Source: Hemerocallis citrina (lineage: Eukaryota > Streptophyta > Magnoliopsida > Asparagales > Asphodelaceae). From it: a DNA stretch of 64,000 nucleotides. The stretch lies in assembly GCA_017893485.1 (NCBI GenBank), contig CM030362.1, positions 182,364,175-182,428,174 of the forward strand. Direction: 5' to 3'. Shown one piece after another: positions 4,801 through 50,075 of the stretch. A program made the position numbers and the translations under genes. Below the pieces are notes generated by a model. That model made no database searches and was not told the DNA's origin. It was given only the letters and a program-made list of their open reading frames with translations. Position 1 is the stretch's first letter; each line of letters begins with the position of its first letter.

Positions 4801-5546
4801 CCCCTGAAGAGCATACAATCAAATGGACAAGCTAAAATCTTCTCATACCCTAAATCAAAAGACTTGAGAAATATTTTGGTAGCATGGGATGATTCTGGAA
4901 TACAGATTTCGGGAAATGCTTCATTCAACAATTGAAGTAGCATATTGAAGGACTAAGCAGACCACCCGTTTAAAGTTTTGATCTGAAATAGTCTAACAAT
5001 GAATGCAAATTTCGTAAATTTTGAGCAATCACGGTACAAAAGTATACTAGCATCTTACATTAACTTAATAAAGGCTTCATATTCTTTATTAACTTCTGGA
5101 TCTTGTCTTTCCTCTTCCAATCCTCCACTAATGTCTACTGTTACTGTTGGCTCATTATGGGCTTGTGTTGTTGGACTGTTGGAGTGTGCTTGGTTGTTAC
5201 GAATTCCAAATGCATCCTGCAATAAATCTTGCATCTCATCTGCCACACTTAAGTCGTCGTTTACTATGGGCTCGTCTTCATCTTCTAACACACCCGGTTC
5301 AATCGGAATCGCCTGGGCATGCTCTCCATGGCAAAACCAGTGTGTGCACCCTTGGAGAAAACTATTGATCACCAAATGTGTTTCAACTTCGATGCATGTC
5401 TTCAAATGACAGTTAGTACACCGTCGGCATGGACAAAGAATCAAATTTGGATCACTAGAATTTTTCTTGGCGAAAATAATGAAATCTTTAACGCCGTCCC
5501 GATACTCCTTTGATAATCGTGACTTGCTCATCCAGCTTTTATCCAT
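1827..5546 (-). pseudogene. TNP2-type CACTA transposase pseudogene
   Basis: This would cut and paste the CACTA element in the nucleus. Reading the minus strand, the domains occur in the family order. An N-terminal transposase-associated domain (5546-5055, beginning MDKSWM, with the CPCRRC and cysteine/histidine pattern) is followed by the TNP2 core (about 4943-3830, including CPFDCMLFRGD and the CPCC cluster near 4150). Then come a DUF4218-like segment (about 3639-3200, with KLQGPKSHDYHILMQ) and a DUF4216-like segment (2264-1827, with VVLFRGEW near its start). The reading frame is broken by several stops and frame changes between these blocks, some of which may be introns. No continuous open frame longer than 163 codons remains, so the copy is almost certainly inactive. 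An intact TNP2 is about 900-1000 residues. Confidence 0.88.
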
Positions 5547-5658
5547 TTCAACAATATCACTAAATCTGAAATTAAAATTTTATATATTAAAATATTAATA
5601 GCATCTACCTTACTAAGTTGATTGCCCATGACTCAAATGAGAAAATTAAAATTAATGT

Positions 5659-6066
5659 CATTACTTTATATGTCAAAGACCAAATGAAGGTTTATAGATG
5701 TCGGATGCTCATGATGTTTGTTAGCACAAATTTCAACCTAATTAATTCCTCAATCTCAAAAGAAAGCAAAGAGCCCTAGAGTTCCTTTCTCTCTTGAACT
5801 CTTCATTAGTGGAAAAACTGATTTAACCCATTTGATTCTAATTTGCCTGGTCATGGAACTCTCATTACTTTATATGTCAAAGACCAAATGAAGGTTTATA
5901 GATGTCGGATGCTCATGATGTTTGTTAGCACAAATTTCAACCTAATTAATTCCTCAATCTCAAAAGAAAGCAAAGAGCCCTAGAGTTCCTTTCTCTCTTG
6001 AACTCTTCATTAGTGGAAAAACTGATTTAACCCATTTGATTCTAATTTGCCTGGTCATGGAACTCT
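5659..6066. repeat. Perfect 204-bp tandem duplication
   Basis: Two head-to-tail copies, 5659-5862 and 5863-6066, each start CATTACTTTATATG and end CATGGAACTCT. I compared them base by base and saw no difference, which implies a recent duplication or conversion. It sits in the 5' region of CACTA-A, upstream of the transposase start. It contains no gene. Confidence 0.95.
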
Positions 6067-22301: not shown

Positions 22302-23654
22302 TTATTTTGGAAAGAAACAAAAATACTTGTGTTTATTGTCTGTGTCGCTGCCACAAGTGTTATACAAGATCCAACTGGAGTTGGGAATGCATTCGTCTTT
22401 CTCTGATGCGATGATGAGTTTGAATAAATGTAAGCAGTTCAGGCGTATAATCATGTGACATTCTATGGACAGACTTTCCTCAACTGCATCATAATTAAAA
22501 TCCTTATTATTATATTCTCTCTCATCTGCGACTATCATGTTATGCACTTTTATGCATGCTGTCATAATATCACGAAGCGTCTCTTGATCCCAAAAACATG
22601 CTGGTCCACGAACAATTGCAAAACGTGCTTGAAGAACACTGAATGCTCGCTCTACATCCTTCCTTGCTAATTCTTGAGCTTCAGCAAAATATTTATTCTT
22701 ATCACCTTGTGGAAATAGAATAATTTTTACAAATGTTGACCACCCTGGATATATACCATCAGCAAGATAATATTCCATCGTATAGTTATTACCATTGATA
22801 GAATAGTTAACCTTGGGCGCTCGTCCATTAGCAAGATCATGAAAGATAGAAGACCGATGTAGCACATTAATGTCATTAAGAGCTCCTCGTAACCCAAAGA
22901 ATGCATGTCATATCCAAAGATTATGTGAAGCCACAGCTTCTAAAATAATTGTAGGTTTATGAATGTGGCCAATATACATTCCTTGCCATCCAGCTGGACA
23001 ATTCTTCCACTTCCAGTGCATACAATCAATATTTTCCAATATACCGGGAAAACCACGATCTTCGTTCATTGCTAGCAATCGGGTAATGTCATTATTGTTT
23101 GGTGATCTTAAGTATTCATCGCCAAATACTCTAGCAATGGCCTTGACAAAATGACGAAGACTCTCGATTGCAGTGCCTTCTCCAATACGTATGTGATCAT
23201 CAACTAAATCTGCTGATACCCCATAAGCAAGCATCCTTATTGCAGCTGTCATCTTTTGAAGTGAAGACAATCCAAGAACTCCACAAGCATCCCTTCTTTG
23301 AATGAAGTATCGATCATAGGCTTCTATAGCAGATTGAATTCTTAGAAAAAGCGAACGTCTCATTCGGAATCTCCTTCGAAAGAAATGAGGAGGATATACA
23401 GACCTTTCAGAAAAATAGTAATTGAAAAGTCTTTCATATCCTTGAGCTCTATCACGTTGAATAATAGTGTGGCCTGGAATAGAACCATAACGAGGTGCTC
23501 TTCGTCTTCTTGTAATTAGCTCATCTTCATTTTCTATAGCCATTAATGCTAAAGGTAGCATTTCATCATCTGAATAGACATCAAGGTCATTGATCTCAAA
23601 CATTATATGAAGTACATTAGTAAAGTGTGCCATCAGTGAGTAAATGTGGTTCAA
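22302..23654 (-). pseudogene. Harbinger DDE transposase, one in-frame stop
   Basis: This is the HARBI1/PIF-like nuclease (DDE_Tnp_4 type) that cuts and joins transposon ends. It starts at ATG 23654. Two open segments (23654-22908 and 22865-22302) are in the same frame, separated by a single TGA at 22908-22910, where the family normally has Trp before HAFFG. The catalytic acids are visible: Asp in ENIDCMHWKW, Asp in YYLADGIYPGW and Glu in KDVERAFSVLQARF. Read through, it would be about 449 residues, normal length. The C-terminal part is slightly extended past the conserved MIVADER. Apart from that stop the frame is well preserved, so inactivation looks recent. Confidence 0.88.
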
Positions 23655-23856
23655 TGCTTAATTGAGCTGAGAAGAGTGAAAGCATGAATTGAGTTAGAAT
23701 ATTTATATTGCAAGTTTATGTGGAAATTGGATTCATACAGGCAAAATACAACTTTTATTAAAAAAAATGTTTAGCTGAAGGCTTACAAATGGTTAGGTAA
23801 AAAAAACTACATTAATAAACAATGGCTATTTGAAGTAATAAATACACAAACAAATA

Positions 23857-26800
23857 CTAATTATTGCTTAGTGTTTTTCCAAGAATTTCCATCTTGCGGG
23901 CTTCATAATATTTTGCTCGCAATAGGTCCATTCTAGTGGTGTCAATAGCCATTATTTTTTCCTCGTTTGCTAACATTTGTAGACGTAGTCACTACAAGAT
24001 TTTTAGTATTCCCCGGCGAATCTTCCCTGGTGTTTGAGTAGTCGCGCCGGGGAATCGAAGGACTATAAAATTTTGGTAATCTACGCCGGCGTTTGTAAAA
24101 AGCACCGGTCTAGGGTATGTATACTTCAGCGTCCATTAGTTAAAATTCCCCCAATCCGAACCGTATTTCACTCTCTATCTTTTTTTACTCAATTTTATTT
24201 TTCCCTCTCTCTCTCTCTTGCGATCTCCCGCCACTCATCGACGCCGGTTCATGGCGGCCGTCGCTGTGCCCACGTCGACGTCCACGCACTCTCTATCCCG
24301 CTCACTCATTTCTCTCTCATCGCAAGTACTCTCTCTCTCCCTCTCTCTCTCTCTCTACTTCTTGATTTTGTTTTGGAATCTATGCTCAAGAACTCATGCG
24401 ATCTCAAATCTCGTCTCGATTTTTGCTTCACTGTGTTACTCTGTGATTGGATCTAGCTAGGTTTTAATTTCACTGACTTGTTGTTCTTGAGATTTTGAGG
24501 GATTTAATCTCTGTTTATTTTTGTAGGAATTTTGGGTTGTAATGGTTTTTGTAAGGACTAATTTAGGGGAGATTTGAAACTCAATTTGCAAAAAATGTGG
24601 CAATATACTCAGATTTGGAATTTACTGCCCTTTTTATTAAGTACCCATTTATGGTTAATTTAGGGGAGAATGTACCCATTTATGGTTAATTGATGAATGC
24701 CCTTTTTATGCATTGTTAATGTTAGTGATGCATGGGATTGACAAGATGGAGTGCTTTATTGTCTTGAGACAGATTCTAGGATTGGTATATGTGTTTACTT
24801 ATTTGTTTATTTGGTTCATAATTGCTTGTGGTCAGTTTCATTATTAATAAATGTAATGTAGTTGGTTTATAGATATTCGGCAAGATATTGGGCGTCGCTC
24901 TCTCATTTAGTTTTGTCATCGTGGATTAATTCTATCACCAATCATTGTCTTGCTCATCTATTTGTTTCTATTCTTTTGGGATATACCAATGAAAAAGAAG
25001 GGTAAATTGAGGAAGTTTAAACTTGGCTCATCTTCAAATGTCATTCAGCTCACATTGAATTAATGTTTGGTTCAGCCAAAAAGGAAGTTATGTTCTCCAT
25101 GCTGGCAATCTATTATATTTGGCTCATTTTATTATGATGTTATGTTTAGATTGAGGAAAGGGGTCTTTAGTTTGGGTTCTTTGTCGTATGTGCTTCATTT
25201 TTTTCACTATTCAATACTTGAAGCTTATCCTGATTAAAACAAAAAATGGGACCATGCAGGTTCATTTTTTTCATTCTTCAGTTTGAGTTTGCTTTCTTAT
25301 CTGCAATCGAAAGAAGTTTGCAGTTTGACAACTTTTTAAGAAAATTAACCGATGCTAGTTAGATTGTGTTTCGATGAAGTATATATGATCCAATAGTTAA
25401 TGAAATGAACTCTCAAATTCTCTCACTGCATAGTGTGTGCTTGTTTGAAGTTTGGTTGAATGCCAACATGCAAGTGGTTTATAGCCTTCAGAATAAACTG
25501 GAATTATTATGCATTTGGAGATGGATTAGTTTCTTTTTTGTCTGAATTTGGAGATGAGATGGATCATGTATCTGAAGTTGCACACTATAATTTTTTGAGG
25601 AGCGACTAGTGATGGAATTTTTTTATCTAAACTTTATATACAATTATATCATGATGTCTACATGAGTATCAGTTTCTAACGTAAGGTTCATGCCTGTTGC
25701 TTGGGTTTGAAAATGAGATTGTTCTTTGTCGTATGGTTTTAAGTGATGATGAGATGGATTATGTAACTGAAGTTGCATACTATGATTTACAGAGGAGTGA
25801 CTAGTGATGAAATAATCCTGTTTGAACTTATGTTGTGGTTTCAATTGACAGTTATCTCGTGAGTATTATAAAAGTATAAGTTTCATTTCAAGTAGTAGCA
25901 TTTTTGCCTTAATTTGACAGTGAAAGTATTCTTTTTCACTCTTTGTAATTCAATAATTTGAACTCCATATTCTAGTTTTGATTGTAAGAGTGTTGCATGT
26001 TTTTTTTTTTAAATTTATTTTTTTAAAATTTATATACCTACACTAGTGTTTGTAAAATCTCCGATATAGAATGATTATAGGGGAAGAAGAGGGCAGTCTT
26101 GAATACGCCATACACCGGCATTTTTGCGACGGCCAGTGTATCTTACGGAAATACCGGTGTTCGTAAAAAACGCCGGTATAGATCCCCCCCTTTTCTGCGA
26201 CGTCTTTTTCAGCGGCATTAGCATCGACGATTTTAAAAACGCCGGTGAATTATTCACCGGCATTTTAAAACACCGGTGAATATCAGAAAAAATGCCAGAA
26301 AATCCATTGTGTGTTGTAGTGAGTTTTTCTTTCTCAATTTCGATTAGCTCTTGCTGTTGACCGAATGCTTTCTCATATTGTTCTGTTTTAATTTTTTTTA
26401 TTTTCCTCCATATATTCTTGCAGGAACATTACTGCATGTGTTTTCTCTTGATTGTGTTCCTTATGCTTTTTCATTTGTTGCTCCTTGGAAGCCTTTCTAC
26501 CAATAGGCCTTTTCATATCAGTTACAATATATTCTGTCTCTAAATTAACTTAATCCAGTAGTGAAACAGACGATTTTGCAGGACTTATCCTTTTACAAGT
26601 TTTAGACTTTTTCTTTGAAATTTCTATTGTCCATTTAGGATTATGCTTCAATTCATGCCAACAATGAAAAAATTCAAATGGCATTCCTTGCAGTTCTTCA
26701 TACATTAGCTTTGCTTGAAAAATCTAAAATTAGTTAAAATTAATAATTATTTTTGGAAAAAAAAGTAATTCATAAACTTCAATGATATTAATACCTTGTC

Positions 26801-27240: not shown

Positions 27241-27298
27241 CTAAACATTGCAAAATATCACTGTGAGATTAGATAATCTAAAATATACCTAACCATAC

Positions 27299-28575
27299 AC
27301 ATGAAATGTAGGAGTAAAGAATATAGACATATACCCAACCATAACAAAAACCCCAACCTGCAGATCATGTTTAGATGATATTAGTTGCTATCTATTTTTT
27401 TAACTACCTCTATCAACTTATTTGATGAAATATTCTTGCAGCACATAGGGTAAAAGGAGTTAAGAATATGTAAGAAACATTAGAAAGGAACAACAGCATA
27501 TGCAGGCTTCATCAAATGGAGTGAAGGCATAGGCAGTGAGATAGCATTGTAGGCTAACAGGGTGAAAGCAAGGCATAGGCTAATACATGTCAGAAACATA
27601 CATAGGAAATGTAGGAGTAAAGAATATAGACTAACATATACCCAACCATACCAAAACCCCCAACCTGCAGATCATGTTTAGATGATATTAGTTGCAAACT
27701 ATTTTTTTGACTACCTCTATCAACTTATTTGATGAAATATTCTTGCAGCACATAAGGTAAAAGGAGTTAAGCATATGTAAGCAACATTACATAGAAACAA
27801 CAACATATGCAGGATTCATCAAATGGAGTGAAGGCCTAGGCAGTGAGATAGTATTGTAGACTAACATGGTGAAGGCAAGGCATAGGCTAATACAAGTAAG
27901 TATACAAAAGTTATCAAGTGTTATCAGAATTGATAGGTAAACAGACACATGACTTGGAAACTGATACAAAAGTTTAGAAGTGAAGGCCATGTTCATAGCA
28001 GGAAACAAAATTGTAATTGAAAAGAAATTAAAGGAACAGTACAATTAGTTTAACATCAAAGAAATTAAAGGTACAAAACGGATACTTATACATTCTTGAT
28101 AATTTTTGATACTTATACATTCTTGATAACTTTTGGTATGGAAACTAATAGTTATACATTCTTGATACTTATACATTCAAGTGTTATCAGAATTGATAGG
28201 TAATTGATAAGTAATTGATATCAGAATCAAGTAAGACACATGACTTGGAAACTGATACTTATACATTCTTGTGAAATAACCATACTGCCCTAGTAGCATT
28301 AAATTGATATGCACCTCTTCATGAATTGATAGGTAAGTATCAAGTGTTATCAGAATTGATAGGTAATTGATATGGAAACTGATACTTATACATTCTTGAT
28401 AACTTTTGGTATGGAAACGGATACTTATACATTCAAGTGTTATCAGAATTGACAGGTAATTGATAGGTAATTGATATCAGAATCATGTAAGACACATGAC
28501 TTGGAAATTGATACTTATACATTCTTGTGAAATAACCATACTGCCCTAGTAGCATTGAATTGATATGCACCTCTT
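27299..28575. repeat. Direct repeats between ORF1 and the Harbinger right end
   Basis: A block of about 300 bp appears twice (from about 27299 and 27597), marked by CCCCAACCTGCAGATCATG and GATGAAATATTCTTGCAGCA. From 28080 to 28575 a second family repeats GATACTTATACATTCTTGAT and AAGTGTTATCAGAATTGATA several times. Both lie in the non-coding 5' side of the element. No gene. Confidence 0.8.
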
Positions 28576-32005: not shown

Positions 32006-32989
32006 GGCAAAGGATGGAGTCTGGTAATGATGAAATTCTTTTGACGTGTCTCAAGACTAGCAGAGCATCTCTACTCTTCTAGGAGGTTCTTCAATAATGA
32101 AGCCTTTCTTTTGACGTGTCATCTGTTTACGGTGAGTTACTTTTTAGAGTCTTCATCGGCCTTTTATGTGCCTACATTATGAAGGGCTATGGAATTTAGA
32201 GATAGTGGACATGGGTTCATTATCTCCACTAAAATGTGTGTCTGTCGTGTCTGACTTTACTTTTTCTTTCTTATTATCTCGAATCATCTTTTCTTTTTCT
32301 TTTTCTTTTTCTTTCTCTTTCATTACTTCTAAATGCCCTTCTTTTGATAATGCATTCTTCAGTGCATGGGACACTTGTTCAACAATTATTGTTCCAAAGA
32401 ATTCTTTTCTTTTTCTATGTCATCTTCTTTGGCTTAGGACATTCAGGTAGCTTCTGTAGTTCTTCAATTTGTTGAAGTATCTGAATAATTTGAGCATAAT
32501 CATATGTTCTTACGATCTCTTCTTCTGCTAGGGCTTTGCCCTTATTTTGGCTTTTTGGCAAAGCCACGACCATCGACTGATTTGATACGTCTTTACCGGT
32601 AGCCGTCTGCTCCGGACTAGCCATTGAAATTTTGGACCCAATGATATCCTTTGTAGCATTCACACTACAAAATAAATGGTCTATCCCGGCATTTTTGTGT
32701 CGGCATTTTAATAAAACGCCGTTATAGACCCGTGCAAAAATCTAAGAGATCTATCAAGTCATTATTTAACGGCATTGATGGAAGGCGCCACAATAGATAT
32801 TATCTATCCCTGCGTTTGGTGGAGAAACACACCGGGATAGTCTCAAAACTTCTTAGAATCCCCTGAGACCTATCAAAATCCCCCAAATCTCAGAACCCCC
32901 AAATCTCTCAGATCCCCCAAGTCTCAAAACCCCCAAATCTCTCAAAATCCCCACAAGTCTCTGAACCCCCAAATCTCTCCAAACCCAAA

Positions 32990-33560
32990 TCAAAACTGGT
33001 CACCGTCGTCGTCGTTGTCGTTGCCGCCGTCGTTGTTGCTGTCGACGTTGCTGTCGATGTCGACGTTGTTGTCACCGTCGCCGTCTTCAGCCCAATGCCA
33101 ACACCATGTCTCTTCTCCTCTCCTTTCCTTTCCATTCCCAAGCCATCGACTTCCATCTCCACCTTCCTCCACCCTAGAGCTCTGAAAGTAGCTAGGGCAT
33201 CCAAATCCCTCATTCTCTCTAATCGATCTCTCAGGTTCAGAAGTTTTCTCTAATCCAGATCCTTCAATATTTAGTTTATGTTTTGTACAATTTGAAGGGA
33301 CTAATCTGAAAATTCTCCTCCTCTAGTTAATGCCGAGACTCAAGCTAGGGTTTTATTCTTTTGCCGCCCCGCCTTCAATTATCTCTGGTAAAATTCCAAA
33401 CCCTAAAAAAATTTCTTCATCAATTCCTCATATCTTTCATTGTTTAGATCCATTCCAGTTTTTAAATTTCATGCGCTTGTTGTTGATTTGTATGAAGGAG
33501 TGAAAAATCACAAAAGAAAGCAAATTTGGGAAACAATGAGGTCGGTATTTCTGATAGAAG
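32990..33560 (+). other. Leader/first-exon-like captured fragment in CACTA-C
   Basis: Opposite to a (GTC)n-rich low-complexity frame, the plus strand can be read as MPTPCLFSSPFLSIPKPS and onward to a CTCTCAG|GTTCAG junction at about 33234. It is Ser/Pro/Leu-rich and resembles an organelle transit peptide. It may come from a second captured gene or be the 5' leader of the transposon transcript. Identity unknown. Confidence 0.3.
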
Positions 33561-34742
33561 TACTCAATTTTTGTTGTTCAATCATTCATTTTCTTGTTCA
33601 TTTGATGTAGAAATGTTTGTTTAATTTATGTTTTTATCATTATGGAATGGTTAATCATTAAAGTTCTTTTTTTTAATATAATTAAATCTGAATAATAATG
33701 TGTTTAATCATGAAAAGGTCTCTACTTTGAAGGCTATTATGGTTTTGGAATCATGGATTTTTTTTGTTGGAAATATAAAACAGTAATAGAAAAAAATTAG
33801 GAGGAATATGAAGAAAATGTTATTAGAGATTGTTATATGAGTTGTTCGAAGGGATGGTATATGGTAAAGGGAGAGCATATTGTAAATTATCCTTATAATA
33901 TGTATGCACACACATGTAACCTGCTTTTCTTAAACTATATATCCTAGCGACGAATCTGTGCAATGCACAGAATTAATATGATGCTATCTATGCAAATATT
34001 GAAGTGCTGGATAAAGGAATAATCAGTAGTCAGAAAAAAGTATGTTATACCTCTAAAAATGAATTCTTACCTAATGCCAAATCATTTATGCTAATTGTTT
34101 GATGGCATTTTGTGCATTTGCTAATTTTATTTTTTTTTGCAAGTAGCATATGTATATCTAGGAATGTAACTTCTCATGTTGTCCAATTATTCATGTTGAT
34201 TTCCTTTCTTTAGTGTGTTAAATAGCAATCATATAACCCCATATGTGGCAGTATATGATCAACTACTTTGACTTGATGCCAATTGTTTTGTCATAGAGCT
34301 AAAGTCTTAACGCAAATGGATGTGTTGGATCGTGTATTGAGCAACTACTTTGACTTGATGCCAATTGTTTTATCATAGTGCTACTTATTTTGCACATTTT
34401 TCGATGATGATAATGTTTTAGGAAGAATAGAGTGAATCTGTTATGGAACTGGCCCTTGATTCGTGTTGATTTGGTGTCCTTATCATCTTGTTCACATACA
34501 CCTCATGGGATTGAATCATCGCATCATTTTCTAGCATTTGCTAGTATGTACTTTTTGTGATACTTTCAGTTTTTTATACACAGACATACAAGTATGGTAA
34601 TTAGTTCAAAGAGATGTTTATGCTTGGTTGAAGTAGCTTACATTGTTCTATCCACTTGCTAAATAAGTACATTGGTTGAGGTAGCTTACATTATTTGTGT
34701 TCGTCAATTTAAATCTTTGTATGGGATCTTGTATTTTATCAG

Positions 34743-36031
34743 ACACATTTTGTTGCATATCATGATAGCGATAAACAAAAACTTGAGAAGGCTTTGTTTC
34801 TTTATGTTGCCATCTCAGATCTCCCTCAGGAAATAATTAGCTTAGTATATGTATATTCCTTGCTTTTTAAATCTCTTGACATGTCAAATTCATATTTTGT
34901 TCTTATAGTTAAATGCTTTGTATTTTGTTTAGGTTGCAAATAATGAATCAAGAGATGTGATGCCTTATGGTGATATTCCAAAAACAGCTTTTCAGAGCTA
35001 TATTCGACTTCCACACGAAGGTAGAATCTGAGATTAGTTTTTGTTTTTCTTAAATATGAAATTAAGTTTGTGGTATGTTGTATGCAGTTTTGTTATTTTT
35101 ATTATTATTACTGTATTTACTCTCTTTGGCTAGTTATTTGCAACCTAAGTTTGTGGTATGTTATTACTTTTTTTATATGCCTACCCAAAAAAGTTCTTGT
35201 ATATTTGCAGCAATGCTGGACCCATCATCCACTGGAGATGAGCTAATCAGAATCTAAAAAAATTTGACCATCGCCCTCTCCGTTTAAATGAAGATGATTA
35301 TCAGCGGGTTTGTGAAATTTCTAAGCGTAAGGTACATAAGCCATTTTAGTAACAATCCGGAAAAGTTCTTTCTTTATTTCATTACAGTTTTCAATCCTAG
35401 CATTGTTACCTGTCATTTTAATTTGGAACAGGGAGCAAACTTTAGAGATTTACCAGGTGTGTGTGTTGGTGCCAATAATATAGTAGAGTGGGACAAAAAG
35501 GTTTCAGAGAGTTCTTTTACCTTCTGGAAAACCACTGGTATTTTTCTTACTAACTTGTTAGAAATTTAAGCACTAGTCTTTCCTTTTCTTAAAAAATTTA
35601 ATGTGTATTTTTCTCTCTCCCTGTATTAGGTTCCAGATTATGCAATGAGTTTTATTAAGGGAAAATCGTTAAAGTAAGTTTATCCAATTCCTTTGGTTTT
35701 TTTGGCATTTTGTTGTCTCAGTCAATGATTTCATGAATATTATAGGCCATTTGGTCGCTTGTGGTGGGATGAGACTGTTCCGACGGTTGTCACAAGAGCG
35801 GAACCACATAATCAGGTTCTTTTCTTCAAAAAAGTTTCTTCATTATCGCGTTCTCTAATAATTATTTTTTTTAAAAATGGAGTGTGAGATATCTTTGATT
35901 TTCTGCTATTTATAAATTTAATTTCAGATCATAATCCATCCCGAACAAGATCGAGTGCTCACTATTAGAGAAAATGCAAGATTGCAAGGATTTCCTGAGT
36001 ACTACAGACTGTTTGGGCCAATCATGGCTCG
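34743..36031 (+). pseudogene. Captured chromomethylase (CMT) DNA methyltransferase fragment
   Basis: Seven exons with GT/AG introns on the plus strand: 34743-34829, 34933-35020, 35211-35331, 35432-35537, 35630-35673, 35746-35815 and 35928-36031, about 206 codons in all. They spell CMT hallmarks in order: [77 protein letters not shown], then [20 protein letters not shown]. CMTs methylate CHG/CHH cytosines at transposons, recruited by H3K9me2. Only the region after the catalytic PCQ and ENV motifs is present, and the final QVGNAV motif is replaced by unrelated sequence. Lesions include a frameshift/stop near 35258 in exon 3, a frame change near 35508 in exon 4, and a lost donor (GA for GT) after 34829. 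It cannot encode an active enzyme. Retained introns show DNA-level capture. Confidence 0.88.
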
Positions 36032-37991
36032 GTATGTTCTGATATTGTTCTGCTTCAAGTCAAATTTTCTACTTTTTCATCTAAATCATTGAATTTAAAC
36101 AAGTACATTTGCAAATGGAAGTGAATAATATCATATGTTTAGTTGTAGTATTTGTTTATCTCCGGCCCCTTTGATAAAGAAGTAGGATTAGGTGGGGTTC
36201 TTTCTTATCCTTTTTCTGATAAATGCCATAGAATTTGAGTTAGATCATCTCAAATTATCATTAAATATTTTGAGACATAAAATAAACTATATACCATCTT
36301 GTGTGCATGCATTAATTAATAACAAGACAATAAAGAAATTGTCAATCAGATTCACATCACTTAAACACCAATTCAATTCAAAGAGTGAAGGCATAAACCT
36401 ATTTCGTTAAACAAGCATAGCATATATGAGTATCCACATGAACTGACAAATAATTTCAATCTGTTTCCCGATTAATTTAAATTAGTTAGAATTCAGTTAT
36501 GCTCTGTTTTGTGATAAATAAGTATGACTGCAGCATGTTTCCTTGTAGTCAACTCAGTTATGCTCCAATTTGTGCTCTTTTTTTCTTTTGTTTGACAAAT
36601 TGATGATCAAATATTTATGTTTTTTCTATAGGGCTAGCGTATTCCATCGGTTTCCAGTCACGCACATACATTAGGGCAAAATAATGATGGAATTGGAAGT
36701 AACAGCAGGCCACACGAGGAGACTCCCTTGCTGTAGTTTGTCGAATTTGGACTTTTTTAAAAATGTTTTGTAGAAATTATATCTATGTTTTGTAATAACT
36801 AAGTGTTGTACAACATATACATTTGATGCTCGTTGTATGATAGTTTATTTTGTTTTCTATTCAGTTGTTTTTTGTGATGTGCGACTTTCGGTTCTTGATT
36901 ATGATGTTATTATTGATTTACCTGATTTGCATTTAAATTTAATATGATTATATGTATTTGTAATATACGATTAATTGCTGGTTTTTTCAATTGAAAATTT
37001 TATCATTAAAATTTAAAAAAAAAAAAAAAAACCAATCGTGACGTTTCCCAAGAAATGCCGCAATAGGTCCTACAGCTTTTGAGTAACCTCTATCGCGGCA
37101 CTGAACAAGCGCCGTGGCAGGGTACCAATGGTAGCTTTTAATCATGGTGCGGTCCCGGCGCTTGCAAAAAGCGCCGCTATAGCTCTATTTTTTTCAAAAC
37201 GAAATGTTCCTGTAACGGCGGTTTGGCAACGCCGTTACAGGTGGACATCCTATAGTGGCGGCGTCCGTAAACGCCGCGATAGCCTATATGGCTATAACGA
37301 CGCATGTTCTAACGGCGCTTTTAGCGGCGATTTCAGAAGCGCCGTTATGAGCTATAACGGCGCCAAAAAACGCTGCTATAGCCTTGTAAAAGCGCCGCTA
37401 TAGCCTGTGCGGTTTGTAGTGTCAGATGGGAATGCTCATTAATCTCACCCTTTTGATTTATGACTGAGGATACAGTATTTGGTGGGAACTTGGTTTGGAA
37501 TAGGTCCTTTTGTTAATCAGATATCTTCTTATGCAAATTATGTTTTTCATGGATCAAACTATTAATATTCACATTTAACTTTTTAACAGTCCTTGTCAAT
37601 GCTTCACAGTGATCACAAAATAAAAACATTTATCGTTCATCTCTAGCTACTGAATAGTGTAGAGGTGCTTCATAAACGGTTGTTAAGGAGAGAGAAACAA
37701 AATAGTTAAGTCCTAGATACTTTCTAGCTACATCTAATGCTTTTGACAAGTTATTAAACCCTATATAAAATGGATCTCTAAAATCTTTAACACTATCTAA
37801 GACTTCTATCCACATATGGAACACTCATGTTAAACTTCCTTTTAAAACTACATAAAATTTAAAATTTCTTTGTGTCTGATTAAAGAGTTCTGATATAGCA
37901 TTTCATTACTACTAAAAGTATTTCTAGTCTTTATTATTAAAAGCAATCCGGAGATATTCTAAAATGCATTTATGTTCTTTATTAACTAAAA

Positions 37992-38656: not shown

Positions 38657-40500
38657 TATGAGAAAAAGTCTTAAAAGATATATTACTAGTTGGAAAGACA
38701 ATCAGTTCTTGGTTACCAAATCTAAGGCGTTCTTGACTTAGTCTTACTAGCATGGTCTGATTAGATAAAAAGTTATTTGATGGTAAACCTTGCCTGGGAG
38801 GAGGTATCTCCATTTGTACATGATTAAAAATGTTCATAAGATCAATGCTTAAATAAAGTGTGGATAATTTAAGAAGATGATCAATTCTTATAGTAATCAA
38901 TTGTCGTCTAATTAATCCTTCATACCCTTCTTCATAAGCGTCAAATTTATTTTCTAATTGATATAAAAAATGTTTATCATATATACAATCAATACTTTTA
39001 CTAAATGCTTCTATGGAGCAAATTTGAAGAAATTGAAATAATGAAAAATCCAAGTCTGTGTAATCAAGAAAAGGGTCAGGAAAATTAGCACCGAATTCAG
39101 GATGAATCTGGTCCACCAAGCTTTGGAGCGCACTTTGATGGACAAGGTGACTAAGAGTGCCAGGAATAGTATTAGTAGTGCCCTTGATGTGAGCAAAGTA
39201 AATACGTGCTCCTAAGGCAGAGCAGCGGTCAATAAAGTTTAACCAACGTCTTCTTGAACTTCTTTTACTGTCTAAATTCATCTTATTATGAAAAGAAACA
39301 ATTGCTACACAACAGTTCCCAAAGTAATTTCTTTCCTAGAGAATATAAATAACTCGAAACTATCTAATGCATATGAAATTGTAAGAAGTTATGCATCAAT
39401 ACTACTAATGTTATCTTTTTCTTCATGTTTTCCGCTAGCATATCTACAGATTCTTTCGGTATATCTGTCTGAATATTTGTTCCGTTTAGCAATAAGAGTG
39501 GATCCCCACCCTATGTTACAACCATCTATCTCAACTATTAGATAATCTGTATCTAACGGTAGAATTAATTCATGAAGATTTTTTACTAGTTGTTTTATTT
39601 GTAAAAAGAGTTTAATATCTTCTTGATTAAAATTTCTATGACATTTTTGTGAGATTTTTGCATATAAAGGACCTGCTATTTTTCCTAAGTCTTTTACAAA
39701 AGATCGAGCATAGTTAACTAGTCTTAAAAATTATTGAATTCGTTGTAAGGTTTCTAATTAATCTGGAAAATCTAGAATCGTTTGTGCTATATGTGGTTGA
39801 AGATTTATTTTTCCTTGGCCTATAATTACTCCAAGAAATTCTATCTGAGGTTTAAATAATTGCATTTTCTTCTTACTAACAATTAGTCTATAATTAATAA
39901 ATTAGGAAATAATAATTTGTAAATGACCACGATGTTCTGTCTAGTTTTACTAAAAAATAAACAACAAACATTTTAGGTTTTAAAAATATATCATCCATTG
40001 TTCTTTGAAAAATAGATGGTGCATTCATTAGGCAAAATGGCATTACGAGCCATTCATACTTACCTTCTGGCAAGTGAATGCTATCCATTCTACACTTCTT
40101 GGATGCATTCTAATTTGTTAGAAACCTGATTTTAAGTCAAATTTATTAAAAAATGTACAACCTTGAATCTGGTTTATTAGCCTAGTTTTGTCTGGTATAT
40201 CATAACCATCGTATATTGTATTATCATTTAATCTCTTATAGTTAATAACCTTTCTACTTTTTCCTCTAACTATTTCACTATGATTTCTTACTATAAAAGC
40301 TGTTGATCTATGCGGGCTTTCAGATCTTCCAATTACTCCTAATTTTAAAAGCTCAGAAATATGTGTTTTAAAATCTTCTAATTCTTGATTAGTTGCATTA
40401 ATCTTAGCGGTTCTAATCTTATATTCAGGATTTATTATATTAAGTTTGCATACTATCTTATCTTTTTTTCCCAGTATATTAATATATCTTCGCCTAATAT
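38657..40500 (-). pseudogene. Caulimovirid reverse transcriptase and RNase H, decayed
   Basis: The minus strand shows the RT palm region near 40088-39990 (motif around '[14 protein letters not shown]', with Cys replacing the usual Gly). Fingers-type sequence lies upstream to about 40450. The RNase H end is near 39281-39120 (a 'KGTTNTIPGTLS' type motif), followed by a linker to the next gene. Frames are interrupted by several stops. These domains copy pregenomic RNA to DNA in related viruses. Here they are non-functional. Confidence 0.78.
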
Positions 40501-40502
40501 TT

Positions 40503-41374
40503 CTATTTTTCTATTTTCGAAATTAATTGTTTTATTTCTTGTTCGCTTACTAAAGTATAATATAATTGTTCTAGGTTTATAATTTCTTTTTTAATGTCTA
40601 TCTTGTAATCATCAACTTCTGTGTCTTGTTCTATTTCATTTAGTTGGCACTCATTTTCATGTTTACATTTGCATTCTTTTTCTGGAAATAAAGTGTTAAT
40701 TTTTCTAGTCATTGTAGGTTCATCTTGAATAAATACGGGAGTATACAAGGTATGTTTTTGTAGTTGTAAATAGTCTTTACTAATAAGTATACTACCATTA
40801 TCTTTTAATACGAAACTTGTCCTAATATTAGATCTACTCTTAGGTTTAAAGGTCTTAGCCAAGTACCATCCTTCGGTAATGTATATTCTTGGCTTTCTCC
40901 GCAATTAATTTCAAATCTTATTTTACTATTGAGTGCTAATTGGCTATCATATGTATAGGTCTATCCATCCATTTGTTGTACTTCTACTGTACTTTGGGTT
41001 ATAACAATATATTGGATAGGTATTAAATCTTGATTAATAAAGCAATTACTGCACACTGTATCTACTAATGCTAAGCATTTTATTTCATAATCTTTTATTC
41101 GGATTATGCATATAACTTTTAGAATTTTTAAATCTTCATTATTATATATTTGTACTAATTCATTAGGTTCTGAAATATCCACAGGCTGTTCTATTACTAT
41201 TTTTCCTTTTTTAACTTTAGCCTCCAATATTTCCAATTTTTCATATATTAGTTTATGTGCATCTTCAACATTTTCTATTCTTTTCCCTAATATATTTAAT
41301 TCATCTGTATGGATTAACGTTCGAGCTACTAAAGGGCTAAATGATATTTCATATCTGTGTTCTGTACACTTCAT
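40503..41374 (-). pseudogene. Caulimovirid aspartic protease region, decayed
   Basis: Two minus-strand open segments (41374-40961 and 40904-40503) lie between the zinc-knuckle and RT pieces. A protease-type motif 'ALVDTV' is visible near 41075, where the family has Asp-Thr/Ser-Gly. The glycine is replaced by valine, which would inactivate the protease. The segment upstream is charged and coiled-coil-like. Confidence 0.65.
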
Positions 41375-42237
41375 ACAACATTCTCTATGACATTTAGAAC
41401 ATTAGTTCTATGTTCTCTACTAGGATACCAATTGCAGAAAAAGCAAGATACGTTATCCATTCATGTATTAATTTTTCAATCGTGTTGGCAAGAATCTTGA
41501 CTGGTACTTTATATGTTCATCATGTATAAATCTTCAAGATCAGATAAGTCTGGAATATTGTTTTCTAATGGGGAAATACTATCAATGAATCTATTATTTT
41601 CTATTTCCTCTAACCCCCCTTCATGGTTTTGATCTTCTATAGTACTATAGAAGAAATTAATTCAGTGTGTGATACAGTTTCGTCTATATTAATTAAGTCT
41701 TCATTAGCATTTACTAAAGTATTGTTTTAATTATGTTTATTTATTCTTTTTTGGCACACTACAAAAGAAATGGTCTTTGCCGGCGTTTTTTTGAACATTT
41801 ACCGGCGTTTATAAACGCCGCTGTAGATACCACCGGCGTTTTATAAATCGCCGGTGCAAGTGCCGCTGAATCGAGCGTCGCTGTAGCTTAGGGACATTCA
41901 CCGGCGTTTTTTACGGCCGCCGGTATATGTTAAAACTACACCGGCGGTCGTAAAAACGCCGGTGAATGTCTGGTTTCGTTTGGAAGCACTGTTTTCGCCA
42001 TGACCTACACCGGTGTTTCTAAAACGCCGGTATATACTTCCAATTTTTTGCTGAAAGCTACACCGGCGCTTGTAAAAACGCCGGTGTAGCTATATTTTTT
42101 TTTTAAATTATTTTTTTTAAAAATTAAAAAAAAAAAAAAAACCTTCGACACTCTTTACTAATCAAAACCAATTGCAAAACTAAAAGTGACCCATTATAAT
42201 ATATATGAATGAAACATATATTTTTCACAGTGAACCC

Positions 42238-43000
42238 AATTGTTGTACATATCCGGAGGATTTTGGCATACAGCTATAGCATCCTCAGTTCACAGTGAAC
42301 CCATTTTGGTCAAAAAAACATGCCATGAAATAAGCTTCATTAACAGTAAAAGAAGATGAGGATGCTAGCAGCATACTTAGTTTGGAAGTGAACCCATTTT
42401 TTGTTAAAAAATCATGCCAAAGATGGCAATCAGCTTCATTAACAGTATCTGAAAATGAAAATATCCATTATCTGAGCATATATGTTGCTCTACTAATTCT
42501 TTAGCCCAACTAAATCTAAAACCCAATTGTTGTACATATCTGGAGGATTTTGGCATACGTACCTATAGCATCCTCAGTTCACAGTGAACCCATTTTGGTC
42601 AAAAAAACATGCCAAGATGACAATCAGATGCATGAAATAAGCTTCATTAACAGTAAAAGAAGATGAGGATGCTAGCAGCATACTTAGTTTGGAAGTGAAC
42701 CCATTTTTTGTTAAAAAATCATGCCAAAGATGGCAATCAGCTTCATTAACAGTATCTGAAAATGAAAATATCTATTATCTGAGCATATATGTTGCTCTAC
42801 TAATTCTTTAGCCCAACTAAATCTAAAACTCAATTGTTGTACATATCTGGAGGATTTTGGCATACGTACCTATAGCATCCTCAGTTCACAGTGAACCCAT
42901 TTTGATCAAAAAAACATGCCAAGCTGACAATCAGATGCATGAAATAAGCTTTTATTTGCACTGTGACATTTCAGATGCAACAAATAAAATAAGCTTTGAT
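42238..43000. repeat. Tandem repeats of about 290-307 bp inside CACTA-D
   Basis: The phrase AATTGTTGTACATATC (T/C) GGAGGATTTTGGCATAC recurs at 42238, 42525 and 42832, each followed by CATCCTCAGTTCACAGTGAA. Two full units and a truncated third are highly similar. No gene identified within them. Confidence 0.85.
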
Positions 43001-43079
43001 TTGGTATTTACTAATTTTGTCAAACCTATATTTACCCAGAACCGGATCCCTAACCAAATTTAAAATTTTGGAGACTGTT

Positions 43080-46000
43080 CAAGCATGCTGAAAGCCATAT
43101 ACCCAATACCCGATGATAAGGTTATACAGCTATAATTTTGGGGTCAATTGTACAATTGTTCGATACTCAACCAACCCTAACAGTATTAAAATCAAAATCA
43201 ACAGCATTATGCTTAAGCTTATTATAACAATAGTTCAAGTCCATAACCTTTCCTCATTGAAGCTATATTCAAACTCTTCTAAATGATGAAAAAGGAAATT
43301 CATTGTGAATAAAGCATCCAACTGCAAGTCCATAACCTTTCCTCATTGAAGCTATATTCAAACTCTTCTAATTGATTTTTCCTCAAGTAGACTAGAAGGT
43401 TGTCAACCTTACCGAGAACAACTGGTAAAGACTATAGTAATGCTGATATAAACTTAGCATATCCAAAGATACAAGTTTGATGTCAGCTGTACTTCATTAG
43501 AACATTTTTTTTTTTACATCAAAGTAATAAATATGGCTCCCCATATTTCACCATGTCAATTTTGATATATTGGATAAGAAAGGACTATAAAGCCTTTTGA
43601 AACTATACATATTAGAAAAGCTGCGAGGTTTTGTAGATAACAGAATAATCAACACAAGGAATTTCAAACTATAAGTGTTGTTAAAAAGCATATGCCTTTC
43701 TCTACTTCCACTGCAGTCATTCAGAATTCCCTTATTTATTTTTACTTCACGCACAACTACCATGAATGTAATATTATTCTGATTTTTGCTTAAAAACTTC
43801 AAACGTATGAAAAAGATAAACTTATACGAGAGATATAAAGAAATTGCCAATTAGAAAGAGTAAGACATGGTTAATGAAAGTGTCACAAGCTGAAAAAATA
43901 CAAAGTATAATCTGCAAGCACAAATCTAAGCGACTTGAGCTAATGTAAACACATTTCACAAGAAAGAAAAAAATGTTATTACTCACTCGCCTTCACTGAC
44001 TGAAATATATTTTGATAAAGTGTATATGTTTTACTTAAAGAAGAGTTAGTTTCTGTTTTCACTTTTATTCTGAGTGAGGAAACCAAAAGGATGAGTTCTA
44101 CAACGGAAAAACTTCACTAGCAAAGAAGAAAGAGTACGAGCTTCCAACTAACCCGTGATCTCCCATTTATCAAATTTTGCTAGCCAAGCATCCGAACCAA
44201 TCTACGAAGAAGAGACTCTGTCCACCCAAACTTGATAATGCTTTCCTTGTTTATCCCCATAATGTGCCCCAAATGCATCTATGAACTCATGAAGAGAATA
44301 CTCAACTCCGGAAGGATGAACAAGAACTCCATTTTGATACTATCAATCACATTGCATAGAAACATTTTAGTTCATGATGACGATGGAAGGTATACCATCT
44401 TTTATTTTTATTGAACCCATGAAGCACATCAAGTCTGAGCTATTCTAAGGTATATTTAATTTATTAAAAAAAAGAGATCATGACAGCAAATTTTTGCTAC
44501 TTTCAGGCACAGAGGCAAAATCCTTCACGCATTTTGTAAAAAGACTATATTATCCTGTTAGATCTCAAATGAAAGTCATTCAATATTGGAAACAAAAGAA
44601 AATCTAAAACTTCGTAGGACTTAATGAATAGTTACGACCTAAAAGTTTAAAATGTCACAGTGTACCAACTTTAGAATAGTGGATTAACATTTGTACCAGT
44701 AAAGTCATGTGAAGGGGAAACATACACTGATCCTTTTCATATTCTCGATAATTGATTCGGATTTTTCCAGCTCTGCCCGACGCCATCTCTCATATAGCAA
44801 ATAAAAGTTGACCACTTCATGCCCAGGGTTGAAATTTTCTAGCTTGCAAGTAGATAGATCTAAAATACATCAAGAAGAGGTGCACGAATACATGCAAATA
44901 AGGACATGGAAACTCTACAAATGCTGCGTTCCGGGGTCATTCGAATATAAATTCTTCATACTACAGTTCAAAATTTCTAAAACCATAACTAATTCCTACT
45001 TCCAAATTAAACAAACAAAAGAACTTAATTCCTAATCCAAAAAGAAAAATATAAGTAATCAAACTCTAACAAAAAGAAAAATATAAGTAATCACATGCAC
45101 ACTTAGAATTGCATCAAAACGCTTGAGGTAATCCTGAAAAGCAATTTAAAGTGTCAGGGATAATCACCAAGAGAAACTGAGGCTCTTGAAAAGAACCGTT
45201 GCAATGTCGCCTATAATTGCATCAAAACTTATTGTGTCATGTTTTCTTCCCACACGAGAAAATAAGTTGGAAAGACAGGAGAAAATACAAACTAGAGAAT
45301 GATATACTGTAATTACTTTTGTAATGAAAATCTAGCTTGATGATATCTTTATAGCATATTGCATGAATATTAACTCAAAAATAAAGTAGACTGTTATTAG
45401 TATTAATGCTGAAGTATTAAAATGTCTGCTTCAGAAATGGCCTCAATTTTGCAACTCTTCTATGCAACTATTGTTAATTTGAAAAAAAAATTTATCCATG
45501 TGCACGAGAAATAACTCAAATCATATATGTGACTCAACGTTGAAACCCCAAGTGTTCCATCTATATTTACATACATCCATCACATCTTCTACGGAAAAAG
45601 CTCTACAAAACCATACAAACTTCATCTGGAAACTGCATATAATCACACCAAATATTACCAACTTCTCCAATTCATGAAGTTGAATGTAATACTTGTGCAT
45701 TTTACCCTCAAATGTGCCGATTAAACACAACCCGCTAAATTTTATCTCTATATATGGGTACCCTCATCTAACTAACGTATCAACAATATCTCTATGTATA
45801 AGCACTCTCCTTAGCTTATGTATTAACATCCAAGGTTGTGAAGCCAATATCATGCCACCTCACATTTCTTTTCATAAATCAAGGACTCAGACTCAAAACA
45901 TTAATTCAGTAAAAATTAAACCCTAAAATCGAAACTGAATTGAACCCTAAAATCCTACAACTAACAAATCAATTCAGTAAAAATTGAACCCTAATCAATT

Positions 46001-46130
46001 CAGTAAAATTTTCCCAAAACAAAATTAACAAAATTAACCCTACAACTAACAAATCCCAAAACAAAATTAACCCTAAAACCATAAAATTAACATTAAATTT
46101 GTTTACACCAGATTACAAGATCGTTGACGG
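43080..46130 (-). pseudogene. Captured, unidentified exon fragments in CACTA-D
   Basis: Several minus-strand stretches look like exons of an ordinary plant gene separated by AT-rich introns. About 44855-44730 reads NPGHEVVNFYLLYERWRRAE and continues with a Glu/Ile-rich helix. About 44320-44180 can be read as VEYSLHEFIDAFGAHYGDK before a stop. A 69-codon frame at 45730-45521 is Phe/Val/Cys-rich. I do not recognise the family or families and cannot tell whether they come from one gene. The rest of 43080-44150 and 45000-45500 is intron-like. Confidence 0.4.
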
Positions 46131-46456
46131 TAGGAGACAGCGGAGGACTGCGGGGAACGACAGCGGGGGAGGGAGACAGTAGGGGACGGAGAGGGACGAT
46201 GGCGGGGGAGGGAGACAGCAATGGCGACAGCGGGGGAGGGAGACAGCAACGGCGAGGGACGACGGCGGGAGAGAGAGAGAGAGAGAGAGAGATGGAACCG
46301 TGAACAAATAGGAGAGACGGGAGAGTGCGGGAGGGGGGAAATTTGGGGGAAATAGGAGAGGGGCGTGGGGGAAATAGGAGAGGCGGGAGAGTGCGGGAGG
46401 GGGGAAATTTGGTACATTTTTTAACTTAGGGTTTGGGGGAAATTTATCCCAAACCC
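46130..46456 (-). other. Purine-rich leader at the right end of CACTA-D
   Basis: On the plus strand, (G/A)-rich units such as GGGGGAGGGAGACAG repeat. A 50-bp block containing GGGAGAGTGCGGGAGGGGGG is duplicated at about 46320 and 46385. On the minus strand it gives only a Ser/Pro/Leu low-complexity frame. It probably acts as an untranslated leader. Confidence 0.5.
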
Positions 46457-46716
46457 TATACCGGCGTTTTAACTAAAAAACGCCGGTGAATGAGAGAATG
46501 TTCACCGGCGTTTTTTATTAAAACGCCGGTGAATATGGACTTCCCCGGCGTTTTAATAAAAAACGCCGGTGAATATTATAATTCCCCGGCATTTTTTATA
46601 GGCCGCCGGCGTATAACCATCCATTTTGATGCCCCATTCCTGGTCTCTTCCTACCCCGGCGTTTCTGGTAAAACGCCGGGGAATATACGCCGGTAAATCC
46701 ATCTTGTGTTGTAGTG

Positions 46717-47955
46717 GCATGTTCTACTCATGTTCTGTACTACCACATGTATAACATTCAAGTTTATTTTTATAAGTCTATAGGCTTAAATTTTCTAACA
46801 TACCGTTGGGCATCAAAATAGGGTTTTCTCCTATTATACTTTCTTAAATAGTATTTCTTTTTATGATATTTTTGTTCCTTTCGATAGTTCTAATAATTTC
46901 TAGGTTTTTTATCAATAATACCATAAGTATGTGGAGTGTAAATTTCTCTGCAAAATCTGTAATCTGAGTGTTTTAATTGTTTTTGTATTTGGATTTATGT
47001 ACACTTTTCTTTTAATATTTTTATAATATGTTGTATTCTCTGACCAATTGACCAGGTATTGGTTGGTTCTTCTTCAATACCTGGTTCATTTTTCCAACTT
47101 TCTGCAATTTCTATTCCTAGGGCACCGGGAAGTTTTCTAAAAAGTTTATCACCTAATTCTTGATTAAAGGCGTTGCTGGATATACAAGTATAATAAAAAT
47201 AGTCATTTAGGAATATTTTAATATATTTTCATTTATAAAGCTTAACTGTTCTAGACTTCTACTAGCGTCTTTTTGTAATCCTAAGCATCCTGAATTAGGA
47301 TCTTCTCCTGTTGCCAGGCTTTGGATTTTATTTACAAAGTTATATGGATTAGCTCCGAATTATAAAAGCTCATTATAATCAGCTACCTGATAGGTCTTGT
47401 ATGACTCCCACATAGCGCTAGTACTATCTCCTAAATATGTTTCTAAATATTTATGCATCTCTTCTGTTTGCATATCTATGGCGGATTATAATATTCTTCT
47501 GCTGGTGTATATTTCCAAACGTCTAAAACATTTGCCCATGTTTGAGGATCATGAGCTACTAAGTTAAAAATTTGAGGTTCTCCTTTTGTTTGAAATTTAA
47601 TGGGTTGTTCTAAGGGTAATCTTTTACCCCTACTTCTATACCTATTTTTTTGGTTCTCTATATTTAGAGTAAGGAAGTTTGGGTGCATTTCCTACATTAT
47701 AAGTTTGAGGTGGTAATGGTACAGTTCTATGAAAAGGAGAGGGTGAAATAGCAGTACTAGTGTCTACTGTATCAGTTAATTCCTTTTGATATGATATATC
47801 TGTAACTATTGTTTGTATATCTTCATCATCAGATTCTATTAATTTACGTATTCTTATAATTCTTTCTTGGTCATAATATAAATATTCATTTTCATTTATA
47901 GACTTATTTCTATAATGTGTTTCTTCTAATTCTAATAATTCCTGTTTTGTTAATT
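46717..47955 (-). pseudogene. Caulimovirid coat-protein and zinc-knuckle region, decayed
   Basis: The minus strand encodes, in broken frames, an acidic N-terminal segment (47955-47700), a basic/capsid-like segment (47688-47476 open) and further capsid-type sequence to about 47100. At 46765-46735 comes the start of a CCHC knuckle (Cys-x2-Cys-x4-His). CACTA-D sits at the codon for the last cysteine of that knuckle. Order before the protease and the CCHC motif support a caulimovirid capsid. In-frame stops show it is inactive. Confidence 0.68.
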
Positions 47956-48984: not shown

Positions 48985-50075
48985 GTAAGGGGGTCGGTAC
49001 CAAGAACGATCGACGATTGGTGCCGAACTCCAGCCCGTAATACGTTCGGTGGCAAGAGCGCTCGGCAGCTCGTGCCGAACTCAAGCCCGTAATACGGTCG
49101 GTGGCAAGGTCGCTTCGAAAGCTGGTGCCGAGCTCAAGCCCGTAATACGGTCGGTGGTAAGGTCGCTTCGGCAGCTGGTGCCGAACTCAAGCCCGTAATA
49201 CGATCGGTGCCAAGAATGATCGGCAGCCGGCGCCGAACTCAAGCCCGTAATACGGTCGGTGCCAAGAATGATCGGCAGCTGGCGCCGAACTCAAGCCCGT
49301 AATACGGTCGGTGCCAAGAATGATCGGCGGCTGGCACCGAACTCAAGCCCGTAATACGGTCGGTGGCAAGGTCGCTTCGGCAGTTGGTGCCGAGCTCAGG
49401 CCCGTAATACGGTCGGTGGTAAGGTCGCTTCGGCAGCTGGTGCCGAGCTCAAGCCCGTAATACGATCGGTGCCAAGGTCGCTTCGGCAGCTGGTGCCGAA
49501 CTCAAGCCCGTAATACGGTCGGTGCCAAGGTCGCTTCGGTAGATGGCGCCGAACTCAAGCCCATAATACGGTCGGTACCAAGGTCGCTTCGGCAGCTGGT
49601 GCCGAACTCAAGCCCGTAATACGGTCGGTGCCAAGGTCGCTTCGGCAGATGGCGCCGAACTCAAGCCCGTAATACGGTCGGTGCCAAGAATGATTGGCGG
49701 CTGGCGCCGAACTCAAGCCCGTAATACGGTCGGTGGCAAGGTCGCTTCGGCAGTTGGTGCCGAGCTCAAGCCCGTAATACGTTCGGTGCCAAGAATGATC
49801 GGCAGCTGGCGCCGAACTCAAGCCCGTAATACGGTCAGTGCCAAGGTCGCTTCGGCAGATGGCACCGAACTCAAGCCCGTAATACGTTCGGTGCCAAGAA
49901 TGATCGGCAGCTGGCGCCGAACTCAAGCCCATAATACGGTCGGTGCCAAGGTCGTTTCGGCAGATGGCGCCGAACTCAAGCACGTAATACGGTCGGTGGC
50001 AAGAGCGCTTCGGCAGCTGGTGCCGAACTCAAGCCTGTAATACGGTCGGTGCCAAGAACGCTTCGGCAGCTGGGG
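48985..50075. repeat. 52-bp tandem array, about 20 copies
   Basis: The unit contains GCCGAACTCAAGCCCGTAA, then TACGGTCGGTGCCAAG and a TTCGGCAGCTGG variant. The TAATAC word occurs 20 times at 52-53-bp spacing. Copies alternate between two types, AAGGTCGCTTCGG and AAGAATGATCGG. It lies in the 3' region of the Tat element between the 3' LTR and the antisense gene. Open frames inside it are by-products of the repeat. Confidence 0.93.

Follow-up and report, generated by a model that had tools for sequence, protein, structure and literature searches.

In rice, CACTA elements carry pre-miR820, which possibly derives from OsDRM2 and which lowers OsDRM2 (PMC3459959), and in Drosophila the TART-A element has captured part of nxf2, with antisense PIWI-interacting RNAs (piRNAs) being made (PMC7785250). 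In soybean, the CACTA element Tgm-Express1 holds spliceable pieces of five genes (PMC1947982), in maize Pack-CACTA elements with several gene sources have been described (PMC8903248), and a review cites maize work on captured pieces as reservoirs of small interfering RNAs affecting the donor genes (PMC13317346). In Zymoseptoria tritici, amplification of a DNA methyltransferase gene brought about a loss of methylation (PMC6710886). The present analysis concerns a stretch of 64,000 nucleotides of Hemerocallis citrina (assembly GCA_017893485.1, contig CM030362.1, positions 182,364,175 to 182,428,174 of the forward strand; “the window”), which contains a Pack-CACTA element, that is, a non-autonomous CACTA transposon with a piece of a host gene, in this case a chromomethylase (CMT) gene. 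It is very probable that a CMT3-type gene was captured once, at the DNA level, and that the piece is carried as a passive cargo.

The element resembles the Pack-CACTA and Pack-TYPE elements of Arabidopsis, rice and maize in its CACTACAA ends, its 3-bp duplications, its several copies, the lack of any transposase found, and a host gene fragment that retains introns and has a donor relative elsewhere. It differs from those described in that its cargo is a chromomethylase; the word “methyltransferase” is absent from the main text of both PMC8903248 and PMC13317346; no captured chromomethylase is reported among the literature matches listed, as far as their titles and the openings of their abstracts go. 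Like the rice miR820 elements, it is multicopy and carries sequence derived, intron included, from a methyltransferase gene, but miR820 has a fold-back precursor, RNAs of 22 and 24 nt and a shown effect on OsDRM2 (PMC3459959), whereas the CMT part of the window element contains no hairpin and its source is a CMT instead of DRM2. As in the case of TART-A, in which the captured and the host nxf2 sequences are 93-96% identical, part of a host silencing gene has been captured; TART-A, however, is a retrotransposon in the piRNA pathway for which antisense small RNAs were observed (PMC7785250). Tgm-Express1, likewise a CACTA element, carries host-gene pieces in which exons and introns are kept, but these come from five unrelated genes and were shown to enter a host transcript by splicing (PMC1947982). 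In Z. tritici, too, a cytosine methyltransferase gene is multiplied in the genome, but transcript capture and telomere exchange are held responsible in that case, and the loss came about via repeat-induced point mutation (RIP) (PMC6710886). Suppression of silencing through a captured gene piece would in any case not be new in kind, miR820 and TART-A/nxf2 being precedents. RIP mutation is not known to occur in plants.

Ends and cargo of the element

CACTA-type ends, a 3-bp duplication, a host-gene fragment and several copies, with no transposase found, identify the element as Pack-CACTA (Table 1). All neighbouring CACTACAA pairs that face each other in the window (3/3) have matching 3-bp flanks (AGT, TCA and GCA), while the cross-pairs of such ends listed in the window have none (0/2), so that positions 32663 and 37421 are the true transposon ends. 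Chance end motifs are ruled out by the matching duplications of all three pairs, and an assembly accident by a complete copy of the element on another contig (C7). A Pfam scan, which short exons could escape, found no transposase domain in the 10 open frames outside the CMT exons, the only matches of these frames being weak and below cut-off; movement of the element would depend on a CACTA transposase supplied elsewhere.

The captured segment comprises seven exons of the 3' part of the CMT catalytic domain, with their introns kept. Spliced and read through, with X at the two frame changes, it gives matches to the maize CMT structure 4fsx (E 5e-87) and the Pfam family DNA_methylase (E 3e-5). 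All seven exons are also recovered in the right order from the unspliced DNA by a profile built from 110 CMTs (P0121 and P0122, which have part of the catalytic domain repeated and inflated scores, were excluded from the set). AG acceptors are present at 7/7 exons of the window copy and GT donors at 6/7. Relative to the 110 full CMTs, the fragment shows 65-71% identity, keeps 52 of the 55 invariant columns and differs by 14 residues that occur in no member of that set, the corresponding figure for family members left out in turn being 0 to 9. Neither the last conserved CMT exon (YIQVGNAVAVPVA) nor the upstream exons were found in the element by the CMT profile search, and a reading of the last exon at 36632 was rejected, as the profile finds none.

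The original prediction, made from the letters of the window, had described a CACTA transposon with TCA duplications that bears a frameshifted CMT fragment. The ends are borne out by the 9-bp repeats, TCA on both sides and the second copy, the CMT identity of the internal segments by the 4fsx, DNA_methylase and profile matches, and the frameshifts by a 1-nt deletion in exon 3 and a 1-nt insertion in exon 4. Two details needed correction: all seven segments, said to be bounded by GT and AG, do have AG acceptors, but the donor of exon 1 is GA, and the span of 34743-36031 holds the exons, whereas the captured DNA runs from about 34693 to about 36092.

Table 1. Positions of the element, its captured exons and other features of the window
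Feature	Position	Strand	Basis or remark
Non-autonomous (Pack-type) CACTA element with CMT piece	32663..37421	+	9-bp terminal inverted repeats, matching 3-bp flanks, second full copy on C7
Target-site duplication TCA, left copy	32660..32662	.	flank comparison
Target-site duplication TCA, right copy	37422..37424	.	flank comparison
5' terminal inverted repeat CACTACAAA	32663..32671	+	
3' terminal inverted repeat, reverse complement of CACTACAAA	37413..37421	-	9/9 bases identical
3' subterminal repeats, type AGCGCCGCTATAG	37160..37410	.	
Captured CMT gene segment, exons and introns, ~1.4 kb	34693..36092	+	~90% to L040 4589-5012 and 5225-6125
Captured exon 1	34743..34829	+	donor GA vs GT in intact gene, common to C7 copy
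Captured exon 2	34933..35020	+	
Captured exon 3	35211..35331	+	1-nt deletion vs intact gene, window copy only
Captured exon 4	35432..35537	+	1-nt insertion, common to C7 copy
Captured exon 5 (VPDYAMSFIKGKSLK)	35630..35673	+	
Captured exon 6	35746..35815	+	
Captured exon 7	35928..36031	+	no match to last conserved CMT exon downstream
3' part common to large CACTA family	36313..37000	+	search with 36100-37000: 1403 first-look candidates, 40 scored, 40/40 match
Second CACTA-ended element	23990-26321		AGT duplication
Third CACTA-ended element	41757-46716		GCA duplication
Caulimovirid reverse-transcriptase piece	40121..40510	-	PDB 8r0s E 5.9e-21
Caulimovirid coat-domain piece, right flank	46998..47228	-	PF22909 E 3.4e-17

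Copies, origin and decay of the captured segment

The host genome (3.78 Gb in 701 contigs, the window lying on C5) yielded 70 exon matches in a protein search and 18 matches in a DNA search. The captured core occurs at nine places, namely on C5 (the window), C7, C8 and C10, in three tandem copies on C2, and on C88 and C89; the last two copies are partial (exons 1-2 only), sit on contigs of 125 kb each, which possibly represent a single locus, and were left out of the alignment of the other seven. Complete insertions are found on C5, C7 and C10: the C7 element has AAG on both sides and 98.3% identity to the window element over 4777 aligned columns (L039), and the C10 element (L043; 7548 bp) is flanked by CCC at either end and begins with another kind of 5' end, common to C88. 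The search for element ends gave a 5' end without a matching 3' partner for the C8 copy and, for the C2 copies, a 3' end only.

At the C8 locus, the CMT core is joined directly, on the minus strand, to a 3' exon of a papain-family protease (L042:4073-4342; PF00112 E 3e-25), which is unrelated to CMT and represents a second captured gene or a rearrangement. The three CMT-bearing units on C2 (L044-L046, at about 42.39-42.42 Mb) stand in tandem ~11.5 kb apart and, where the 5' part of the first would be expected, there are long frames that by eye resemble the Gypsy element at 55-61 kb of the window.

An intact CMT relative of the donor, L040, is located on C4 (about 293.14 Mb) and is open through the captured exons; in the 10-kb stretch fetched, which begins inside the gene, its exons cover profile positions 151-858, including the last exon and the catalytic motifs PCQ and ENV. 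Compared with L040, the window copy shows 20 differences in 619 exon sites (96.8% identity) and 89 in 723 intron sites. L040 has a near-identical counterpart, L041 on C282 (2/620 exon sites differ), which may be a haplotig or a recent duplication of it. In the tree, L040 and L049/50 are sisters within the CMT3/CMT1 group, not CMT2, and L051 belongs to the same group, while L053/54 groups with Asparagus CMT2 (100/96) in a tree with few monocot CMT2 rows. The latter grouping points to a monocot as host, a placement that the fragment by itself did not give; in a search with a Gypsy-like gag frame, no candidate out of 8000 scored. With the core at nine places and an intact relative of the sought parental gene on C4, the proposed capture by a mobile element holds, and the absence of other copies, which was to speak for a passive single capture, does not apply.

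All seven aligned copies fall into a single clade, separate from L040 and L041 (support 100/100), and the left breakpoint is common to all of them, the right one to six (the C8 copy is cut short). The shared breakpoint and the single clade point to one capture event for the seven and rule out several independent captures. In this event, ~1.4 kb of a host CMT3-type gene was taken up at the DNA level, the immediate donor probably being a diverged CMT paralogue or haplotype and not today's intact copy; such a paralogue or haplotype was not among the genome matches found.

Among five copies (two near-identical C2 copies having been dropped), 49 of 620 exon sites are variable, against 45 of 636 in the inner introns (p 0.59) or 74 of 723 when the outer introns are included (p 0.15). 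Substitutions were counted per copy in four copies, that of C7 also being dropped as near-identical to the window, and only L040 differences not common to all five were considered; 40 are nonsynonymous and 12 synonymous, which corresponds to a per-site ratio of 0.94, with p 0.87 against neutrality, a rough value because a change present in two copies was counted twice. For the time after the spread of the copies, selection on the captured exons is thus not detectable. Every aligned copy, seven in all, has a frameshift, a stop, a deleted exon or a lost splice site, either its own or common to its nearest kin; the C8 and C10 copies contain one stop codon each, and the C2 copies have deletions, including exon 1. 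These lesions, together with the neutral-like substitutions, rule out a protein-coding cargo. Most splice sites are kept in most copies, as would suit a truncated CMT protein that is made from the captured exons and interferes with the host enzyme, but with every aligned copy damaged, the upstream catalytic motifs absent, the last conserved exon not found in the captured copies and the substitutions as expected without selection, such a protein is scarcely credible.

Passive cargo weighed against an effect on silencing

The original prediction had further proposed an anti-silencing strategy acting through RNA that lowers CMT expression. In the form weighed here, transcripts of the carriers would give rise to small RNAs, these would lower the expression of the intact CMT gene, and less non-CG methylation of the elements would follow. 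Although miR820/OsDRM2 (PMC3459959) and TART-A/nxf2 (PMC7785250) offer precedents, the proposal is not supported at this locus, as the captured exons show no constraint after the spread of the copies, the CMT part has no hairpin, the other CMT loci compared have no 21-mer in common with it and carriers are few. Such a chain of events is unlikely, and equally so the more specific view that small RNAs of a CMT-CACTA subfamily, perfect over hundreds of 21-24-mers, silence one CMT gene and protect the carriers.

In the CMT part, 21-nt stems show no excess over shuffles (9 on the plus strand, shuffle mean 6.2 and maximum 13; 1 on the minus strand, mean 1.2 and maximum 4), and none of 42 folding windows has a hairpin or unusual fold (no z below -3; lowest z -1.46), for which reason a microRNA (miRNA)-like precursor in this part was rejected. 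At gathering scores Rfam returns nothing in the window; two weak miRNA matches, far below gathering, lie at 33023-33088 (23.7 bits, gathering 69) and 37338-37400 (22.7 bits, gathering 93), both outside the CMT part. The core is in a single orientation at each place where it was found. The other CMT loci fetched (L049-L055) have no 21-mer in common with the core, L053 having three 18-mers, in a comparison that left aside two weaker protein-search matches (C6 209.38 Mb and C1 18.20 Mb). As two or more CMT relatives are out of reach, they might compensate if one CMT gene were lost.

A large CACTA family has the 3' part of the element in common, and among the 40 candidates scored with positions 36100-37000 only 6, all CMT carriers, match from position 1 of this query, the rest starting at 36313 or later. 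At the other end, the first 25 bases of the element have 40 exact occurrences in the genome (reversed control, 0), and eight of these 5'-end relatives, with ~1.5 kb of interior each, match the window element over the first 29 to about 620 columns only. A Pfam scan of 10 open frames from seven of these eight gave PF24368 at E 0.009, below cut-off, and no gene fragment was recognised in those frames, a result of little weight given ~1.5 kb per relative. A large 3'-end family with few carriers means that the CMT cargo characterises a small subfamily, and in the relatives compared there is no sign that CMT carriers spread better than those without CMT. A passive cargo is therefore favoured by its decay without selection and by the small number of carriers, gene fragments being moreover the usual cargo of Pack-CACTA elements (PMC8903248); it would have little or no effect on CMT expression.

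Several observations pull in the opposite direction. Exact matches to the L040 exons are numerous, as an RNA-based effect would need: of the 600 21-mers in the captured-exon stretch of L040 (620 nt spliced), 269 occur in the unspliced window copy and 318 if it is spliced, and 431 are found when all seven aligned copies are pooled, whether unspliced or spliced, with a longest match of 84 nt. Judged from these matches, identity to L040 is high enough to make cross-targeting by 21-24-nt RNAs physically possible, and a similarity too low for it, named at the outset as a ground for dropping the idea, is not what is found (96.8% over exons). The core, besides being present at nine places, has survived a series of insertions, and the elements that bear it have 5' ends of two kinds. 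Over the whole element, 21-nt stems exceed those of shuffles that mix regions of unlike composition (31 on the plus strand, mean 16.2 and maximum 23; 29 on the minus strand, mean 6.2 and maximum 13), and the best minus-strand stems sit in simple repeats of the CCCCCAAATCTC type close to the 5' end (32732-32965), away from the captured part. Finally, L040 differences common to all five compared copies number 9 in 620 exon sites and 65 in 723 intron sites (p 2e-10), and for an element that split from the line of L040 itself and changed neutrally thereafter, an approximate calculation predicts 19-22 exonic changes along its own branch (P 0.002-0.011 for 9 or fewer).

The last contrast has an alternative explanation in selection inside the element before its spread, that is, capture from an ancestor of the intact gene, with the fragment being selected until the copies spread. 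This origin is very improbable, because no constraint is seen where the copies are comparable, and the pattern is also accounted for by a donor, paralogue or haplotype, whose divergence took place under gene constraint before the capture. On the reading preferred here, of a single capture and a passive cargo, the exon-intron contrast would reflect a diverged donor gene that was under gene constraint before the capture.

Surrounding sequence and significance

To the right of the element there are minus-strand pieces of an endogenous caulimovirid, with matches to a coat domain, an A3B-type protease, a reverse transcriptase and RNase H. For the last three the Pfam E values are 4e-5 to 6e-4, below cut-offs, but the reverse-transcriptase piece has a firm match to a solved viral structure (Table 1); no viral domain was found in the left flank piece. 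When the flanks are joined as an empty site, a 109-codon open frame runs through on the minus strand, the other five frames reaching 7 to 37 codons, and at the second site, joined in the same way, the longest open frame is 31 codons. Viral sequence on both sides, as initially described, is likely, with the right side alone shown. Scans of IMG/VR with the element end and the reverse-transcriptase piece gave no matches.

The third CACTA-ended element has the caulimovirid coat piece (about 47 kb) on one side and the protease and reverse-transcriptase pieces (about 40-41 kb) on the other. Elsewhere in the window, the CACTA transposase-associated domain PF13963 and DUF4216 occur at 5058-5579 and 1830-2348 (minus strand), and the plant transposon protein PF04827 at 22911-23657 (minus strand). 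Two-copy tandem duplications at 5658-6066, 27294-27894 and 42324-42951 have periods of 204, 307 and 307 bp and matches of 100, 91 and 98%, which suggests local duplication. At 49018-50073 there are about twenty 53-bp repeats (TGGCGCCGAACTCAAGCCCGTAATACGGTCGG...), in a GC-rich part with, by eye, Gypsy-like frames.

Truncated CMT-like proteins were also noted in two other plants among the 120 rows listed, nine from Capsicum (P0031, P0065, P0085, P0086, P0092, P0102, P0105, P0117 and P0118) and five from Xanthoceras (P0042, P0070, P0082, P0088 and P0107); these are possibly amplified CMT fragments there too.

The element offers a natural test of whether the capture of a silencing gene helps a transposon. 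The material for such a test consists of several related insertions, an intact target with ~97% exon identity and many family relatives without CMT, with at least two CMT3/CMT1-group relatives that have no 21-mer in common as internal controls. If the anti-silencing effect were true, it would parallel miR820 by means of long RNA, and its target would be the maintenance instead of the de novo pathway. Should small RNAs and CMT expression not track the carriers, the element would illustrate how a cargo may look suggestive and yet be passive; should they do so, the miR820 case would be extended to chromomethylases.

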